From the NCBI RefSeq assembly GCF_009866965.1, contig NZ_SPKJ01000011.1:1-64000 (forward strand): DNA of 64,000 nucleotides. The letters are read 5' to 3'. Both the position numbers and the translations under genes were made by a program. Positions 35,953 through 42,673 of this stretch are shown here, in pieces. Source of the DNA: Propylenella binzhouense (GTDB lineage: Bacteria; Pseudomonadota; Alphaproteobacteria; Rhizobiales; Afifellaceae). Below the pieces are notes generated by a model. It was not told where the DNA came from. It ran no database searches and saw only the letters and a program-made list of their open reading frames with translations. Every line of letters begins with the position of its first letter. Position 1 is the stretch's first letter.

Positions 35953-37983
35953 TCAGATGTCGAGGTCGTGGGCGAAAGCCGCGCGCTCCTGGATGAAGGC
36001 GAAGCGGTCTTCGGGCTTGTTGCCCATCAGCCGGGTCACGGTGTCCTTCGTCAGCTGGATCTCGCCGTCCACGATGTCGACCCGGAGCAGCGTGCGCTTC
36101 TTCGGATCCATCGTCGTGTCCTTGAGCTGCTGCATCGGCATCTCGCCGAGACCCTTGAAGCGGCTGATCTCGATCTTGCCGCGGCCGTCGAATTCGTTCG
36201 CGATCAGCGCATCGCGGTGGGCGTCGTCGCGGGCATAGAGCACCTTCGCGCCCTGCGCGATCCGGAAGAGCGGCGGGACGGCGAGGAAGAGATGGCCCTC
36301 GCGGACGAGCTCCGGCATCTCGCGGTAGAAGAACGTGATGAGGAGCGAGGCGATGTGGGCGCCGTCGACATCGGCGTCGGTCATGATGACGACCTTGCCG
36401 TAGCGGAGGTCGCCCTCCCGGTAGCGGGAGCCGGTTCCGCAGCCGAGCGCCTGGACGAGATCCGCGAGCTGCTGGTTCTGGACCACCTTGTCGCGGCCGG
36501 CATTCGCGACATTGAGGATCTTGCCGCGCAGCGGCAGCACCGCCTGCGTGCGCCGGTCGCGCGCCTGCTTCGCCGAGCCGCCGGCGGAATCGCCTTCCAC
36601 GATGAAGAGCTCGGTTTCGTCGCGCGCGCTCGCGCTGCAATCGGCGAGCTTGCCCGGAAGCCGGAGCTTCTGCGTCGCGGTCTTGCGGGCGACCTCCTTT
36701 TCGCGGCGCCGGGCCAGCCGCTCGTCCGCGCGCTCGATGACCCAGTCGAGCAGCTGGCCGGCCTGGCTCGGCGAGGCGGTGAGCCAGTGCTCGAAGGAAT
36801 CGCGGATGGCATTCTCCACGATGCGGCCGGCCTCGCCTGTCGCGAGCCGGTCCTTCGTCTGGCCGACGAACTCCGGCTCCCGGATGAAGACGGAGAGCAT
36901 GCCGGCGCAGGCGACCAGGATGTCGTCGGAGGTGATCTGGGCGGCCCGCTTGTTGCCGATCATCTCGGCATAGGTCTTGAAGCCGCGCAGGAGCGCGCTC
37001 CGCAGCCCCGCTTCGTGCGTGCCGCCGTCCGGCGTCGGGATGGTGTTGCAATAGGAGCGGAGGAAGCCGTCGCCGGGATACCAGGCGATCGCCCATTCGA
37101 CGGCGCCGTGCCCGCTCTGCTGCTTGGTGCGGCCGGCGAAGATCTCGCTTCCGATCAGCGTCTCGCCGGCGAGCTCCGCCTCGAGATAGTCCTTGAGGCC
37201 GCCCGGAAAGCGGAACACGGCCTTCTGCGGCACGGCCGGCTTGCCCTGGACGAGCGTCGGCGCGCACGACCAGCGGATCTCGACGCCGCCGAAGAGATAG
37301 GCCTTGGAACGCGCCGCGCGGAACAGGCGCTCCGGATCGAAGGCCGCGCCTTCGCCGAAGATCGCGGCATCGGGCCTGAAGCGGATGCGCGTGCCGCGGC
37401 GGTTCTGCACCTCGCCCGCCAGTTCGAGCCCGGAGGCCGGCTTGCCGCGCGAGAAGACCTGCCGGTAGAGCTTGCGGTCGCGCGCCACTTCCACCTCGAG
37501 CCATTCGGAGAGCGCGTTCACCACCGAGACGCCGACGCCGTGGAGGCCGCCGGAGGTCTCGTAGACCTTGGAATCGAACTTTCCGCCGGCATGGAGGGTG
37601 GTCATGATGACCTCCAGGGCGGACTTGTCCTTGAACTTCGGATGCGGGTCGACCGGGATGCCGCGCCCGTTGTCGGTCACCGAGAGCGTGCCGTCCCCTT
37701 CGAGCTCGACCTCGATCCACGAGGCGTGGCCGGCCACCGCCTCGTCCATCGAATTGTCGATCACCTCGGCGAAGAGATGGTGGAGCGCCTTCTCGTCGGT
37801 GCCGCCTATGTACATTCCGGGCCGGCGCCGCACCGGCTCCAGCCCTTCGAGAACCTCGATGTCCGCCGCCGTGTAAGCCTCGGCCGCGGGCGCGGACGCC
37901 CGCTCGGCGCGGCGTGCCGGCTTGCTGCGGGCCGGTTGCGATGCGGCCTCGGGGGCCGAGAAGAGGTCGTCCGATCTGTCCAT
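35953..37983 (-). CDS. parE: DNA topoisomerase IV subunit B
   Basis: ATPase half of topoisomerase IV, which unlinks daughter chromosomes. The 676 residues from ATG 37983 show a GHKL ATPase domain (VIDNSMDEAV, VTDNGRGIPVDPHPK, GGLHGVGVSVVNAL), a transducer region, and a TOPRIM domain with VEGDSAGGSAKQARD and TDADVDGAHIASLLI. KQARDRRTQAVLPLRGKILN and the length favour ParE over GyrB, which usually exceeds 800 residues. The start is chosen because upstream in-frame residues are not conserved-looking. It is preceded by the long non-coding region to 38749. Confidence 0.95.
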   Translation of the reverse strand: MDRSDDLFSAPEAASQPARSKPARRAERASAPAAEAYTAADIEVLEGLEPVRRRPGMYIGGTDEKALHHLFAEVIDNSMDEAVAGHASWIEVELEGDGTLSVTDNGRGIPVDPHPKFKDKSALEVIMTTLHAGGKFDSKVYETSGGLHGVGVSVVNALSEWLEVEVARDRKLYRQVFSRGKPASGLELAGEVQNRRGTRIRFRPDAAIFGEGAAFDPERLFRAARSKAYLFGGVEIRWSCAPTLVQGKPAVPQKAVFRFPGGLKDYLEAELAGETLIGSEIFAGRTKQQSGHGAVEWAIAWYPGDGFLRSYCNTIPTPDGGTHEAGLRSALLRGFKTYAEMIGNKRAAQITSDDILVACAGMLSVFIREPEFVGQTKDRLATGEAGRIVENAIRDSFEHWLTASPSQAGQLLDWVIERADERLARRREKEVARKTATQKLRLPGKLADCSASARDETELFIVEGDSAGGSAKQARDRRTQAVLPLRGKILNVANAGRDKVVQNQQLADLVQALGCGTGSRYREGDLRYGKVVIMTDADVDGAHIASLLITFFYREMPELVREGHLFLAVPPLFRIAQGAKVLYARDDAHRDALIANEFDGRGKIEISRFKGLGEMPMQQLKDTTMDPKKRTLLRVDIVDGEIQLTKDTVTRLMGNKPEDRFAFIQERAAFAHDLDI

Positions 37984-38207
37984 CGGGCCCAGGTGGGAAG
38001 TCCGAATCAGAGGTTCAGTGTGACATGCCGGCGCTCGGAAGACGACCGTGGTTCGGCCTTTGTTCCAGGCCGGCGCCGCGTGATGCATAGAGGCTGCAGG
38101 GATGAAGGTCCACCCGGAGGCGCAAATCGGCGGCCGACATGCGGAGGGCGGTCGGCCAGGAGCGGGGGGCCAGAGCTTGACGGCAGGGCGGGTCCGGGAC
38201 GCAAGAA

Positions 38208-38244
38208 GGCGGCTCCAAAGCCTGGTCGATGCTTTCGAGCCGCC
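38208..38244. terminator. Long hairpin, 14-bp stem, between parE and the RimK-like gene
   Basis: Arms at 38208-38221 and 38231-38244 pair over 14 positions with one mismatch around a 9-nt loop; the outer eight pairs are GGCGGCTC/GAGCCGCC. No T-run follows directly. It could terminate leftward transcripts from the GNAT/RimK pair before the parE promoter, or be part of a structured RNA. Confidence 0.45.
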
Positions 38245-38501
38245 TCTATACGGGTCTTCGGGTTTGTTCGACTCCCACCATTGCAAGGAGCCCGGTGGCT
38301 TCTGGGCCCATTCAAAGAGTCGGTCACGACCCGTGCGGGTTCAAATCAAACATCCGCAGTCCGCAGAATTCAGCGCTGAGCTCTCGAAGAGAGCGCTCAA
38401 ACCTCCTCTTGCTCGCAGCACTTCGTTCGACGTTCTGCAGGCAGAATTGGTATTCGATTGTGGTGCCGTGTCTGGCCGATCGAGCGAGCCCGACTCGAAC
38501 T

Positions 38502-38537
38502 CTACCCAATCGGCCCGATCTCCTCCGGAGGATTCAT
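38502..38537 (-). CDS. Possible 11-residue mini-ORF with ideal ribosome binding site
   Basis: On the minus strand AAAGGAGG (38554-38547) lies 9 bases before an ATG at 38537. The frame reads MNPPEEIGPIG and stops at 38502. The Shine-Dalgarno sequence is as strong as any in the window. The CCTCC of codons 3-4 could pair with it and hide it. It lies 213 bp beyond the RimK-like ligase stop on the same strand. It may be a leader peptide, a very small gene, or chance. No family is recognised. Confidence 0.2.
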   Translation of the reverse strand: MNPPEEIGPIG

Positions 38538-38540
38538 TTT

Positions 38541-38577
38541 CGTAGACCTCCTTTCATCGGAATGACTTGAGTCTACG
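38541..38577. promoter_or_regulatory. Inverted repeat flanking the mini-ORF ribosome binding site
   Basis: Perfect 7-bp arms CGTAGAC (38541-38547) and GTCTACG (38571-38577) are 23 bp apart. In RNA of the minus strand the pairing would enclose most of the AAAGGAGG, which could modulate its use. Confidence 0.3.
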
Positions 38578-38583
38578 CGGATC

Positions 38584-38628
38584 GGAGCGGCCGTCAAGCG
38601 CATCATGATGCGCGGAATCCTCCGCTCC
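38584..38628. terminator. Nested inverted repeat downstream of the RimK-like gene
   Basis: An outer pair GGAGCGG/CCGCTCC (38584-38590, 38622-38628) encloses the perfect 16-bp palindrome GCGCATCATGATGCGC (38598-38613). It lies 121 bp beyond the RimK-like stop and could be its terminator or a protein-binding palindrome. Confidence 0.4.
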
Positions 38629-38749
38629 CGAGGCGGCGCGCGAAAGGGCCGGCGTTGGTGACATTCGCGATCCGTATCGGCTCGGACCCTCGCTTCTTGG
38701 CGGACGTCGCACGGGCCGGGGAATGCGGCCTGTCCCGGGTGCCGTGCCG

Positions 38750-40204
38750 CTAGCGGTCGATCCGGCTCGTGAACCAGCGCGTCAGGCGGTTCCACACGTC
38801 GTTCTTCCCGACCTGGTCTTCGATGCCGTGCTCGAGATTGGGATTGTCGTTGATCTCGATGACGTAGACGCCGTTCTCGGTCTCCTTGAGATCGACGCCA
38901 TAGAGGCCGTCGCCGATGAGGCTCGCAGCGCGCACGCCGGCATCGAGCACCTCCGGCGGCACCTTGTCGAGCGCGAAGGTCCGGAACCGGCCTTCCTCCG
39001 CGGTGCCGTCGGCGCGGTGGTGGACGATCTGCCAGTGCTTCTTCGCCATCTTGTACTGGCAGACGAAGAGCGGCTGCCCGGCGAGCACGCCGACGCGCCA
39101 GTCGAACTGGGTGGGGACGAATTTCTGCGCGAGCAGGAGATCGGTCTCCTTGAAGAATTCCGAGACGATGGCGCGCAGCTCCGCCATGGAATCCGCCTTG
39201 CGGACGCCGCGGCTGAACGAGCCGTCCGGGATCTTCACGACGACCGGGAAGCCCATCTGGTCCGCGACCTGCTCGAGGTCGCCGTCCTCCTGGATCACCA
39301 TGGTTTCCGGGACGGGCAATCCCGCATGGGTGAGGCGTTCCCACAGATAGACCTTGTTGGTGCAGCGGATCATCGAGACGGGATCGTCGATGACCGGCAT
39401 GCCCTCCTGTGCGGCGCGCCGGGCAAAGCGGTAGGTGTGGTTGCGGATCGAGGTCGTCTCGCGGATGAAGAGGGCGTCGAACTCGGCGATCCTCGCGAGA
39501 TCCTTCCGCGTGATCGGCTCGACCTCCACGCCGAGCGGCGCCGCGACCTTGGCCCAATAGCGCAGCGTCTCCGCATTGCTGGGCGGCAGCTGCTCCTTCG
39601 GGTCGTAGAGGACCGCGACGGAATAGCGTGGCGTGTTGCGCGCCTTCGGCGCCCGCCACTTGCGCGCCGTGTAGGTCTTGAGCGCGTCGCTGAAGAGCGC
39701 CTTCTGCTCCGCCTTGAACTTGCCGACCGGCGTCAGCTCGATCTTCTGGATCCGCTGCCATTCGCCGGGTTTCAGTGTGACCGTCAGCGCGGGCGCGCGG
39801 AACCAGTCGAAGATCAGCTGCCCGAAGGCGGAGAGGCGTGGATCCTCCGTTCGGCCGAAGGCGACGAACAGAGCTTTCGGAACGTCTTCGCCGGCATTCC
39901 TCAAAGCCTGGTTGAGGCACTCCTCGAGCTCCGGGATCGCATGGGCGTAGTGCGTCCGGCTGCGCAGGTCGAGGATCGTCTCCACGCTCGGGAGCACGCG
40001 ATGGCCGCGCGCCTCGGCGAGCAGCGAGCAATAATAGCCCTCGGTCTGATAATTGTAGGAACGGGCGAGATTGATCACCTTCTGCCGCGCGCCGGCGAAC
40101 ATGAAGGGGCGCGTCACGTAGTCCTCGGTCGAGATGACGACGTGCTGGACGTCGCGCGCGGCGAGATCGCGCCGCTGACCGAGGACGATGACCCAGCTGT
40201 CCAT
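38750..40204 (-). CDS. RimK-like ATP-grasp ligase with RLAN-type N-terminal region
   Basis: A 484-residue ATP-grasp protein. ATP-grasp enzymes of the RimK group join an amino acid, often glutamate, to a carboxylate through an acyl phosphate. The first 200 or so residues (VIVLGQRRDLAARDVQHVVI, RSYNYQTEGYYCSLLAEARG) match my knowledge of the RLAN domain found before RimK-like ligases. The ATP-grasp part has PVVVKIPDGSFSRGVRKADS and the metal-binding EINDNPNLEHGIEDQ. ATG 40204 is one base after the GNAT stop (TGA G ATG), so the two genes are coupled. The substrate is unknown. Confidence 0.85.
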   Translation of the reverse strand: MDSWVIVLGQRRDLAARDVQHVVISTEDYVTRPFMFAGARQKVINLARSYNYQTEGYYCSLLAEARGHRVLPSVETILDLRSRTHYAHAIPELEECLNQALRNAGEDVPKALFVAFGRTEDPRLSAFGQLIFDWFRAPALTVTLKPGEWQRIQKIELTPVGKFKAEQKALFSDALKTYTARKWRAPKARNTPRYSVAVLYDPKEQLPPSNAETLRYWAKVAAPLGVEVEPITRKDLARIAEFDALFIRETTSIRNHTYRFARRAAQEGMPVIDDPVSMIRCTNKVYLWERLTHAGLPVPETMVIQEDGDLEQVADQMGFPVVVKIPDGSFSRGVRKADSMAELRAIVSEFFKETDLLLAQKFVPTQFDWRVGVLAGQPLFVCQYKMAKKHWQIVHHRADGTAEEGRFRTFALDKVPPEVLDAGVRAASLIGDGLYGVDLKETENGVYVIEINDNPNLEHGIEDQVGKNDVWNRLTRWFTSRIDR

Positions 40205-40205
40205 C

Positions 40206-40700
40206 TCAGGCCGCGATCGGCGATGAGGCGGGGAGGGCATCCTCGCCGAAGGCACGCCGGTAGAGCAACGCCGGAGCCCCGTCGGCGTAGAACGCGGGCC
40301 GGACGCCCGTCCGCTGGTAGCCTCGGCGCTCGTAGAGGCCGATGGCGCGCGGATTGTCCGGCCGCACCTCGAGCCGGAGGCCCGCCTTGCCCGCGTGGCG
40401 CGCGGCATGCTCGGCCGCCGCGAGGAGAAGTCCGCCGATCCCGCGGCCGGCGTGGCCGGGCCCGACTGCGATCGAGTGCAGCCGCGCAAGCGGGCTCGTG
40501 CGCCGTGTCAGGATGAGCGCGTAACCGGCTATGACGCCGTCGTCTTCGGCGACCACAAGCCGTGCGCTTCGGTTCGCCAGATGGCGCTTCAGGCTTCTGC
40601 GGGAAAGCCGGTCGGACTGGAAGGCGGCCGTCTCGATCGCCTCGAGCGAATCGAGATCCGCCGCCGTTCCGGTCCTCAGGATGGGGGATTGGTCGACCAT
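40206..40700 (-). CDS. GNAT family N-acetyltransferase, RimI-like
   Basis: A 164-residue acetyltransferase of the GNAT fold. Motif A, which binds acetyl-CoA, reads LHSIAVGPGHAGRGIGGLLL, and motif B contains RLEVRPDNPRAIGLYERRGY with the usual Tyr. The N-terminal segment AADLDSLEAIETAAFQSDRL is RimI-like, but genuine RimI is usually near tsaB; here the partner is an ATP-grasp ligase, suggesting a different acceptor such as an amino acid or small peptide. It is first of the two-gene operon. Confidence 0.88.
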   Translation of the reverse strand: MVDQSPILRTGTAADLDSLEAIETAAFQSDRLSRRSLKRHLANRSARLVVAEDDGVIAGYALILTRRTSPLARLHSIAVGPGHAGRGIGGLLLAAAEHAARHAGKAGLRLEVRPDNPRAIGLYERRGYQRTGVRPAFYADGAPALLYRRAFGEDALPASSPIAA

Positions 40701-40738
40701 TTCGGGCTGCAGCGCCGGGAAGACTTTCGGTAGTGGAG

Positions 40739-40750
40739 GTAAGCGCTTAC
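40739..40750. promoter_or_regulatory. LacI-type operator-like palindrome
   Basis: Perfect 12-bp palindrome GTAAGCGCTTAC with the central CG typical of LacI-family operators. It lies 39 bp upstream of the GNAT start and 231 bp upstream of the peptide-binding protein gene. No LacI-family regulator is encoded in the window. Confidence 0.35.
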
Positions 40751-40898
40751 TGCGGCCACCCGGGGAGGCGAACCAAGCCGATACGGTCGCGTCAGTGCAC
40801 CTAGATGAGCGAAGCCAGGGCGGGATTCAACTGGCTTGCCGCCCGGCGGTTCCGAAATTCTTCCGGTCGCGCCGGGCGGAACGCCGGCGTGCGAAGTG

Positions 40899-40908
40899 AT
40901 TGCGCAAT
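40899..40908. promoter_or_regulatory. Short palindrome upstream of the peptide transporter
   Basis: Perfect 10-bp palindrome ATTGCGCAAT, 72 bp before the start of the substrate-binding protein gene, in the likely promoter area. No binding protein can be named. Confidence 0.25.
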
Positions 40909-40980
40909 GCGGAAAGGCCGAACTACTCTGCGGTTTGGCACGCCGGTCCGGTCGTGACCCGGCGGAGCAAGGAGGTCCTC

Positions 40981-42567
40981 ATGCGACACCATCTTCTGAA
41001 GCCGCTCGCCGGGCTCGCTTTGGCGGTCCTGATGACGTCGGCCGCCTCCGCGGAGGTGGTCTACACGCGGGGCAACGACGCCGATCCCGAAACCCTCGAC
41101 CAGCACAAGACCTCGACCATCTCGGAGGCGAACGTCCTCAGGGACATGTACGAGGGGCTCGTGGTCTACGACGCGAAGGCGAAGGTGGTGCCGGGGGTCG
41201 CGGAGAGCTGGACCGTATCGGATGACGGCCTCACCTATACCTTCAAGCTCCGCACCGACGCCAAATGGTCGAACGGCGATCCGGTCACCGCCGGGGACTT
41301 CGTCTTCTCGCTGCAGCGGATCATGAACGCTGAGACCGGCGCCAAGTACGCCAACATCCTCTATCCCATCAAGAATGCGGAGAAGCTGAACAAGGGCGAG
41401 GCGAAGCCTGAGGAACTCGGGGTGAGGGCGGTCGACGACCACACGCTCGAGATCGTGCTCGAGAACCCGACGCCCTACTTCCTGGAACTCCTGACGCACC
41501 AGACCGGGCTGCCGGTGAACAAGGCGGCGGTCGAGAAGTTCGGCACGGACTTCGTGAAGGCCGGGAACATCGTCACGAACGGCGCCTACACGCTCCAGGA
41601 GTTCACGCCGAACGACAAGATCGTGCTCGTGAAGAACAAGGAATTCCACGACGCGGCGGACGTCAAGATCGACAAGGTCGTCTTCATCCCGTTCGAGGAC
41701 CGCTCGGCCTGCCTCCGCCGCTTCGAGGCGGGCGAGGTGCAGTCCTGCTCCGACATTCCGGCCGAGCAGATGGACTACGTGAAGGAGAAGCTCGGCGACC
41801 AGGTGCACATCGCGCCCTATCTCGGCACGTATTACTACGCGATCAAGGCGGACAAGGATAAGTTCAGCGACCTGCGGGTGCGCCGGGCGCTCTCCATGGC
41901 GATCGACCGCGAGTTCGTCGCCGACGAGATCTGGGCGGGCGCCATGCTGCCGGCCTATTCCTTCGTCCCGCCCGGCATCGGCAATTACGGCGAGCCGGCC
42001 TATGCCGACTACAAGGACATGGACCAGCTCGACCGCGAGGACGAGGCGAAGAAGCTGCTCGAGGAGGCCGGCTACGGCCCCGGCAAGCCGCTCCGGGTCG
42101 AGATCCGCTACAATACCGGCGAGAACCACAAGAACACGGCGACCGCGATCGCCGACATGTGGAAGACGATCGGCGTCGAGACCAGCTTCGTCAACGTGGA
42201 CGGCGCCACCCATTACGCCTATCTGCGCGACAAGGGCGATTTCGACATCGCGCGCGCCGGGTGGATCGGCGACTATTCCGACCCGCAGAACTTCCTGTTC
42301 CTGGTCGAGAGCGACAATACCGGCTTCAACTACGCGAACTACAAGAACCCCGAATACGACAAGCTGATGGACGAGGCGGCGACCACCACCGATTTGCAGA
42401 AGCGCGCCGGGATCCTGAAGCAGGCGGAAGCGATCTTCATGCGCGACCTGCCCTATATCCCCCTCCTCTATTATTCCTCGCTGAGCCTCGTCTCCGACAG
42501 GCTGACGGGGTGGGAGGACAACATCCAGAACGCGCATGCCACACGCTGGATGAGCCTCTCGCAGTAG
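40981..42567 (+). CDS. oppA: Oligopeptide ABC transporter, periplasmic binding protein
   Basis: Captures peptides in the periplasm for the permease genes that follow. The 528 residues begin with a cleavable signal peptide (MRHHLLKPLAGLALAVLMTS ending ASA), with no lipobox, then the SBP_bac_5 fold: TRGNDADPETLDQHKTSTI, WSNGDPVTAGDFVFSLQRI and the C-terminal GDYSDPQNFLFLVESDN segment. These resemble OppA/MppA-type proteins more than nickel or dipeptide binders. ATG 40981 has an ideal AAGGAGGTCCTC site. A specific peptide ligand cannot be read. Confidence 0.92.
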   Translation: MRHHLLKPLAGLALAVLMTSAASAEVVYTRGNDADPETLDQHKTSTISEANVLRDMYEGLVVYDAKAKVVPGVAESWTVSDDGLTYTFKLRTDAKWSNGDPVTAGDFVFSLQRIMNAETGAKYANILYPIKNAEKLNKGEAKPEELGVRAVDDHTLEIVLENPTPYFLELLTHQTGLPVNKAAVEKFGTDFVKAGNIVTNGAYTLQEFTPNDKIVLVKNKEFHDAADVKIDKVVFIPFEDRSACLRRFEAGEVQSCSDIPAEQMDYVKEKLGDQVHIAPYLGTYYYAIKADKDKFSDLRVRRALSMAIDREFVADEIWAGAMLPAYSFVPPGIGNYGEPAYADYKDMDQLDREDEAKKLLEEAGYGPGKPLRVEIRYNTGENHKNTATAIADMWKTIGVETSFVNVDGATHYAYLRDKGDFDIARAGWIGDYSDPQNFLFLVESDNTGFNYANYKNPEYDKLMDEAATTTDLQKRAGILKQAEAIFMRDLPYIPLLYYSSLSLVSDRLTGWEDNIQNAHATRWMSLSQ

Positions 42568-42673
42568 CGGCCGCGCCGGGAGGCTCGCCCTCCCGGCCTC
42601 CTGCGATGGACGGAAAGCGGACAGCATCGCGGATCGGCGGACCCGCTGCGGCGGGGCGGGGCGAGGGCGGCTG

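Follow-up and report, generated by a model that had tools for sequence, protein, structure and literature searches.

The gap between parE and the ligase gene

The window analysed here is a 64,000-nt stretch of Propylenella binzhouense DNA. It contains a 766-bp gap between the start of parE (position 37983) and the stop of a ligase gene (38750). Pfam assigns the left gene to the GyrB/ParE-type topoisomerase subunits and the right gene to the RimK-like ATP-grasp proteins with an RLAN domain. The first-pass annotation had noted that the gap lacks a normal gene, which these borders bear out, and that its G+C content dips to about 55 percent, unlike the rest of the window. In agreement with this, the G+C content is 0.59 at 38200-38650 and 0.555 at 38300-38580, versus 0.69 for the whole window. 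A G+C content below 0.575 is found in only 2 of 1274 windows of 300 bp; both lie inside the gap and contain the minimum of the whole stretch.

The repeats listed for the gap are also found. The 14-bp hairpin corresponds to two 15-nt arms (38207-38221 and 38231-38245) that are 93% complementary and form 14 pairs, and the tandem TCCGCAG pair is located at 38353-38366. The spaced repeat CGTAGAC/GTCTACG is present as well (38541-38547 and 38571-38577), but its pairing is probably coincidental, because GTCTACG overlaps five bases of a -10 hexamer and CGTAGAC consists of the spacer between Shine-Dalgarno (SD) sequence and ATG plus the last SD base. Likewise, the 16-bp palindrome exists at 38598-38613 but is not special, since the window holds seven perfect palindromes of that length. 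This palindrome, GCGCATCATGATGCGC, is itself perfect and touches the upstream edge of the -35 hexamer; it could be an operator.

Comparison with relatives indicates that the gap very probably contains a conserved RNA gene with a micro-ORF. The minus-strand promoter, Shine-Dalgarno sequence and Pro-Pro ORF that define the family were absent from the first-pass annotation. The features are as follows, all on the minus strand.

38592..38597, minus strand: -35 hexamer TTGACG (sigma-70-like site search and comparison)
38570..38575, minus strand: -10 hexamer TAGACT (sigma-70-like site search)
near 38563, minus strand: predicted transcription start
38547..38554, minus strand: Shine-Dalgarno sequence AAAGGAGG, within the conserved block AAAGGAGGTCTANNAAAATG (comparison with relatives)
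38502..38537, minus strand: micro-ORF MNPPEEIGPIG, 11 codons, TAG stop (M-x-P-P comparison)
38505..38514, minus strand: 5' arm of helix P1, GCCGATTGGG, from nt 24 counting from the A of ATG (covariation, permutation)
38475..38484, minus strand: 3' arm of helix P1, CTCGATCGGC (covariation)
38452..38461, minus strand: conserved box ACAATCGAAT (comparison, model match)
38275..38309, minus strand: candidate hairpin GGGCCC/GGGCTC (by eye, four sequences)
38207..38245, minus strand: hairpin with 15-nt arms (14 pairs), probable terminator (computed hairpin)
38200..38563, minus strand: proposed RNA gene, about 360 nt, between the predicted start and the hairpin (predicted ends)

The plus strand was rejected as the RNA strand, its fold being weaker (z -1.30 versus -2.48 on the minus strand). 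A tRNA-like scrap seen by eye on the plus strand, TTCGACTCCC, was dropped as chance. ARAGORN found 0 tRNA or tmRNA genes in the window.

A conserved core in the order and class

A BLAST search of the gap against 41 genomes returned, besides the gap itself, only short matches. A core of 30-48 nt within 38564-38509 is common to four genomes of the same family and one further genome of the order. On the minus strand this core reads TGAAAGGAGGTCTACGAAAATGAATCCTCCGGA, which comprises a Shine-Dalgarno sequence and a start codon. The ORFs of the five relatives begin with MTPPDRHKPIS (twice), MTPPESLSPAL, MTPPTRSGPIL and MAPPDSPEPSRN..., compared with MNPPEEIGPIG in the window.

The pattern AAAGGAGGTCTANNAAAATG with at most 2 mismatches matches in 70 of 397 genomes of the order. 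Many of the 2-mismatch matches are chance, since a reversed control pattern also matches some genomes at that looseness. From the 70 matches, 62 distinct ones were read (7 were left unread and one was identical to another), and 47 of these 62 carry an ORF starting with M-x-P-P. With 0-1 mismatch to this SD-to-ATG pattern, which specifies no residue of the ORF after the start, M-x-P-P follows in all 28 matches read, a 29th being outside the read set.

We built a covariance model, R1, of the 5' module from 29 sequences, the window's among them. Under strict filters, R1 matches 74 of the 397 genomes at E<=0.01, once per genome; at E<1e-4 it matches 66 of the 397, in 21 of 52 families. In the window the match spans 38452-38557 and scores 63.3 bits, for a sequence that belongs to the training set. 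One spacing variant, GGAGGTTAAGATAATG, is among the members found with R1; its ORF starts in the same way and its P1 pairs. Across the class, 17 of 385 genomes match at E<=0.01. Of the 16 besides the window's genome, 5 lie below 1e-4. A Shine-Dalgarno sequence with M-x-P-P is present in 11 of these 16 matches outside the order, the weakest of the 11 being doubtful. A strict pattern occurs in 5 of the 385 genomes, the window's included.

The distribution is patchy, with a match in 5 of the 11 genomes of the window's own family and none in the other 6. Among the 30 genomes behind the named loci, Breoghania corrubedonensis DSM 23382, which can be cultured, alone has a plausible match (E 0.004), with the micro-ORF MTPPASTSK and TTGAC upstream; a second match in these genomes has an E of 0.07. 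The surroundings of glnA in 28 genomes without a hit contain no R1 match at E<=5, and the core pattern was not found in the named relatives' loci obtained with the ligase as query. Judged by these named relatives, the order is probably Hyphomicrobiales.

The first-pass annotation had proposed a structured RNA or the remains of a mobile or RNA gene. Conservation across families and covariation in helix P1 (see below) support the structured RNA or RNA gene. That the gap holds mobile-element debris or a dead RNA gene is barely credible. Low G+C and repeats would fit such debris, whereas the families bear signs of purifying selection, the match is single in each of the 74 genomes, and glnA and parE recur as neighbours. 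In addition, the exact pattern was not found in viral contigs, and BLAST gave no match of the whole gap to plasmids.

Promoter and micro-ORF

The 47 sequences with M-x-P-P, obtained by removing from the 62 the 15 without it, were compared upstream of the ORF. In 46 of them, TTGAC lies between -70 and -38 relative to the start codon. Similarly, in a set of 61 sequences it occurs at -80 to -38 in 58, versus 0-3 of about 60 at seven control offsets. In the window, TTGACG/TAGACT has 9 of 12 matches and a 16-nt spacer, and is the only sigma-70-like site found in 38150-38700. The RNA is probably transcribed from this predicted promoter of its own.

Codons 3 and 4 of the micro-ORF begin with CC in all 47 sequences, codon 3 having been a selection criterion and codon 4 not. 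Their third bases vary (codon 3: T9 G20 A16 C2; codon 4: G37 T7 A1 C2). The set of 61 required CC at both codons, and Pro-Pro is accordingly no independent result there; owing to its start-codon finder, this set misses six known members (L119, L120, L121, L126, L144 and L149). It has 59 ATG and 2 TTG start codons, and the ORF encodes 7-34 amino acids in 60 of the 61. Residue 5 is K19 D15 E7 T7 G6 A3 Q2 N2, which places K or T after Pro-Pro in 26 of the 61.

The micro-ORF looks translated. Past residue 5, its sequence and length vary, so the peptide as such is unlikely to be the product. A minimal mRNA encoding an active short peptide would explain the translation signature at codons 1-4. This reading is highly improbable in view of the unconserved length and sequence after residue 5, and of the covariation of P1 as RNA. 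In L138, 2 nt fewer than in its neighbours after MTPPKR open a 100-aa frame and the flanking RNA is kept, so the stop of the micro-ORF is not indispensable.

Helix P1 and the conserved box

In the window, the 5' arm of helix P1 lies within the end of the micro-ORF. Nt 24 is the commonest start of the best unconstrained helix (25 of 61 sequences). With the 5' arm held at its fixed place, we compared its fit to the sequence's own downstream stretch with that to foreign downstream stretches in the 47 sequences. The means are 15.7 and 10.4, respectively, a difference reached by 0 of 20,000 permutations. The own stretch does not stand out in 13 of the 47, where half or more of the foreign stretches fit equally well; 4 of these 13 come from one family, with a P1 offset of about 4 nt.

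Covariation was analysed in 29 aligned sequences. All 8 of the 8 pairs of P1 are changed on both sides, 93.5% of the cells are paired, and 0 of 500 shuffles reach any of five measures. These 29 were picked by helix and box score from 40, which are the 47 minus 7 of one family; 31 lay above the thresholds, and L106 and L135 were also left out. MAFFT alone misaligned the 3' arm of P1, and a gapless construct was therefore used. Because this arm was placed by fit in the alignment, the permutation test is the fairer of the two. An initial shuffle test that searched freely for P1 was weak, in that 20% of the shuffles did at least as well, since the 5' arm was not fixed; fixing it by position gave the permutation result.

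P1 is followed by the box ACAATCGAAT, of which at least 8 of 10 letters are present in 21 of the set of 61. The box is not significantly less paired than stretches matched for A+T (p=0.22, 20 comparisons). Comparison of the predicted RNAs shows a promoter, a ribosome-binding site, a retained Met-x-Pro-Pro, P1 and, after it, the ACAATCGAA box.

Two further observations concern these elements. In the window, the 5' arm of P1 (CGATTG) might alternatively pair with the box, whose CAATCG complements it; the two lie within 38475-38514 and 38452-38461. In L290 and L291, the helix seems shortened to CAGC-GCAA-GCTG or CAGC-GAAA-GCTG at nt 29 (numbered from the A of ATG), a hairpin with a GNRA cap that lies just ahead of AGACAAT.

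Across 60 loci the sense strand folds with a mean z of -2.51; the mean is -0.97 for a control taken downstream (59) and -1.68 for the antisense strand. The window copy alone, at z -1.39, shows a modest gain over shuffles.

The 3' half

The hairpin at 38207-38245 is located where relatives have terminator-like hairpins. Its T tract, TCTTGCG, is poor; it fails the terminator criterion and is not among the terminator-like sites found in the window. In 25 of 59 relatives a terminator-like hairpin with a T tract is located between +150 and +430 (34 fail); three controls give 7, 4 and 3, each out of 59 or fewer.

The middle of the RNA is variable, and group folds of the 3' half did not reveal a shared 3' architecture. 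In the candidate hairpin at 38275-38309, the loop CCACC could pair with a downstream GGTGG, which would form a pseudoknot; it was noticed in the window's family only. Several members outside the order (L287, L292, L294, L300, L237 and L238), inspected by eye, are compact downstream of the micro-ORF. They have a GCCCGG/CCGGGC-type hairpin, then a small hairpin GGUG/CACC (GGCGC/GCGCC in L237), and last a terminator-like hairpin, which is CCCCGCC/GGCGGGG in several. This 3' domain looks common to the compact members.

The promoter signature, the terminator-like hairpins in 25 of the 59 relatives and the diversity of the 3' halves would all be expected of a base-pairing sRNA that acts in trans. 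In such an RNA the micro-ORF would do no more than recruit a ribosome to protect or stabilise the 5' end, and slowing at Pro-Pro would prolong this protection. We regard this as possible but doubtful, since the most conserved parts are the translation signal and P1, and there is no obvious seed.

Gene neighbourhood

Neighbours were counted at 50 distinct loci (55 minus five second fetches of the same place), and the identities of the GlnA and ParE proteins were determined with Pfam on one example each. The glutamine synthetase gene glnA lies upstream within 4.3 kb at 28 of the 50 loci and parE downstream at 16; both are present at 9. The order glnB, glnA, RNA, parE also occurs outside the order, in L238, suggesting that the position of the locus is probably old. 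In the window, glnA was not found upstream of the RNA.

Some loci have other neighbours. In L298 and L299, glnA was not seen adjoining the RNA; in L299 it is divergent from genes that we take to be rplT and pheS by resemblance. In L254 and L255, the gene adjoining the RNA upstream presumably encodes an ABC-transporter solute-binding protein, to judge by resemblance. Unlike in these two loci, a RimK-like ligase gene and an acetyltransferase-like ORF lie in between in the window (38750-42570).

On the downstream side, the nearest gene with a homologue in another locus was identified in 39 loci from simple ORF calls. It is co-directional with the RNA in 23 and opposite in 16, which argues against a leader of one gene in general. 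The 23 co-directional genes, called without annotation, fall into nine clusters. A constant co-directional downstream gene, as a cis-acting leader would have, was not seen. It is accordingly improbable that the RNA serves as a leader or attenuator of the gene downstream of it, which is parE in the window. Such a role would account for the recurrence of parE, which is the nearest homologue-bearing gene in 9 of the 39, and for the window, where no gene is called between the RNA and parE. Against it stand the opposite orientations, the nine clusters and the terminator-like hairpins that follow the RNA in many relatives.

Comparison with known RNAs

A search of 37400-39400 of the window against Rfam 15 gave five matches at E<=5, all below the gathering cut-off and none inside the proposed gene. 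No match at E<=0.5 was obtained in 12 loci of the order, the window's own among them. In 10 loci outside the order the only match was Thr_leader (25.1 versus 55 bits), away from the element.

The closest precedents are the leaders mgtP and mgtL of Salmonella and E. coli, in which, as here, a short proline ORF overlaps stem-loops (PMC5021804, PMC11282234). In mgtP, low EF-P is reported to cause stalling at consecutive prolines, upon which a stem-loop forms in the mgtCBR leader (PMC5021804), while in MgtL an early EPDP motif destabilises ribosomes (PMC11282234). In both, a slowed or lost ribosome decides the fold (PMC5021804, PMC11282234). The early prolines of such ORFs are matched here by M-x-P-P in most of the distinct pattern matches read. 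In contrast to mgtP and mgtL, which are leaders of Mg2+ transporter genes, the RNA described here has its own promoter signature, no fixed downstream gene and a place in an alphaproteobacterial order.

An alphaproteobacterial RNA with a very short ORF is known from Sinorhizobium meliloti, where rnTrpL/RcsR1 acts in trans (PMC7143759, PMC10117765). rnTrpL is described as leaderless from its AUG and as a trp attenuator (PMC7143759), whereas the present RNA has a Shine-Dalgarno sequence, M-x-P-P and a ligase/parE locus. Identity of the two was ruled out by this locus and by the Shine-Dalgarno sequence at 38547-38554, which precedes the ORF. GlnZ of the Enterobacteriaceae is an sRNA encoded after glnA (PMC9731577), the position seen here at 28 of the 50 loci. 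It is reported to be cut from the 3'UTR of the glnA mRNA (PMC9731577), whereas here there are a promoter signature and a micro-ORF. A 3'UTR sRNA of this type is disfavoured by the TTGAC element in 46 of 47 sequences and by the window, where glnA was not found upstream. The CCUCCUCCC-loop sRNAs SmelA075 and SmelA099 of Rhizobiales (alpha-rhizobia) are also linked with an SD-type sequence; they carry anti-SD loops, in contrast to the Shine-Dalgarno sequence and ORF found here (PMC3927594).

The RNA may have been described before. In searches of the open-licence literature, we recognised no RNA with this ORF or locus. Neither glnA nor parE is mentioned in the main text of two surveys of sRNAs (PMC3927594, PMC2873474) or of the paper on the small proteome of S. 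meliloti (PMC10117765).

Proposed mechanism

Our preferred reading, to which we give an even chance, is a single-copy minus-strand RNA gene of about 360 nt in which a ribosome slowing at Pro-Pro gates helix P1. Ribosomes would start translation at the micro-ORF and be slowed by its Pro-Pro pair. By the usual toeprint distance, a ribosome holding the second proline in its P site would have its leading edge at about nt 25, right at the base of P1, which starts at nt 24. A paused or dropped-off ribosome would leave P1 closed. A ribosome that reaches the stop codon would melt P1, and the box and the downstream fold may thereby become exposed.

The gating of P1 is proposed by analogy with mgtP and MgtL, and we rate such a ribosome-controlled switch as plausible at somewhat less than even chances. 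Two features of the ORF speak against pausing. K or T is common after Pro-Pro, and these residues are not among the strongest arrest contexts. Furthermore, the second Pro codon is mostly CCG, described as the fastest Pro codon (PMC8129111).

The RNA might in this way report the capacity for elongation at prolines, as set by EF-P, Pro-tRNA or drop-off. It could regulate in trans, or govern how it is itself completed or degraded. More tentatively, and with rather less than even probability, the family may be an old alphaproteobacterial stand-alone elongation sensor, in which passage through Pro-Pro changes the fold of the RNA itself, which then acts in trans.

Implications

The RNA family described here is widespread, occurs in single copy and has no entry in Rfam; the part it conserves best is a translation signal. 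Such genes are missed because annotation passes over so short an ORF and the 3' half varies too much for alignment. The proline-gated ORFs known so far act as leaders of single operons. If the proposed mechanism is true, an independent gene working on the same principle would provide a general read-out of EF-P or proline status, and the family makes it testable whether polyproline pausing can switch a trans-acting RNA.
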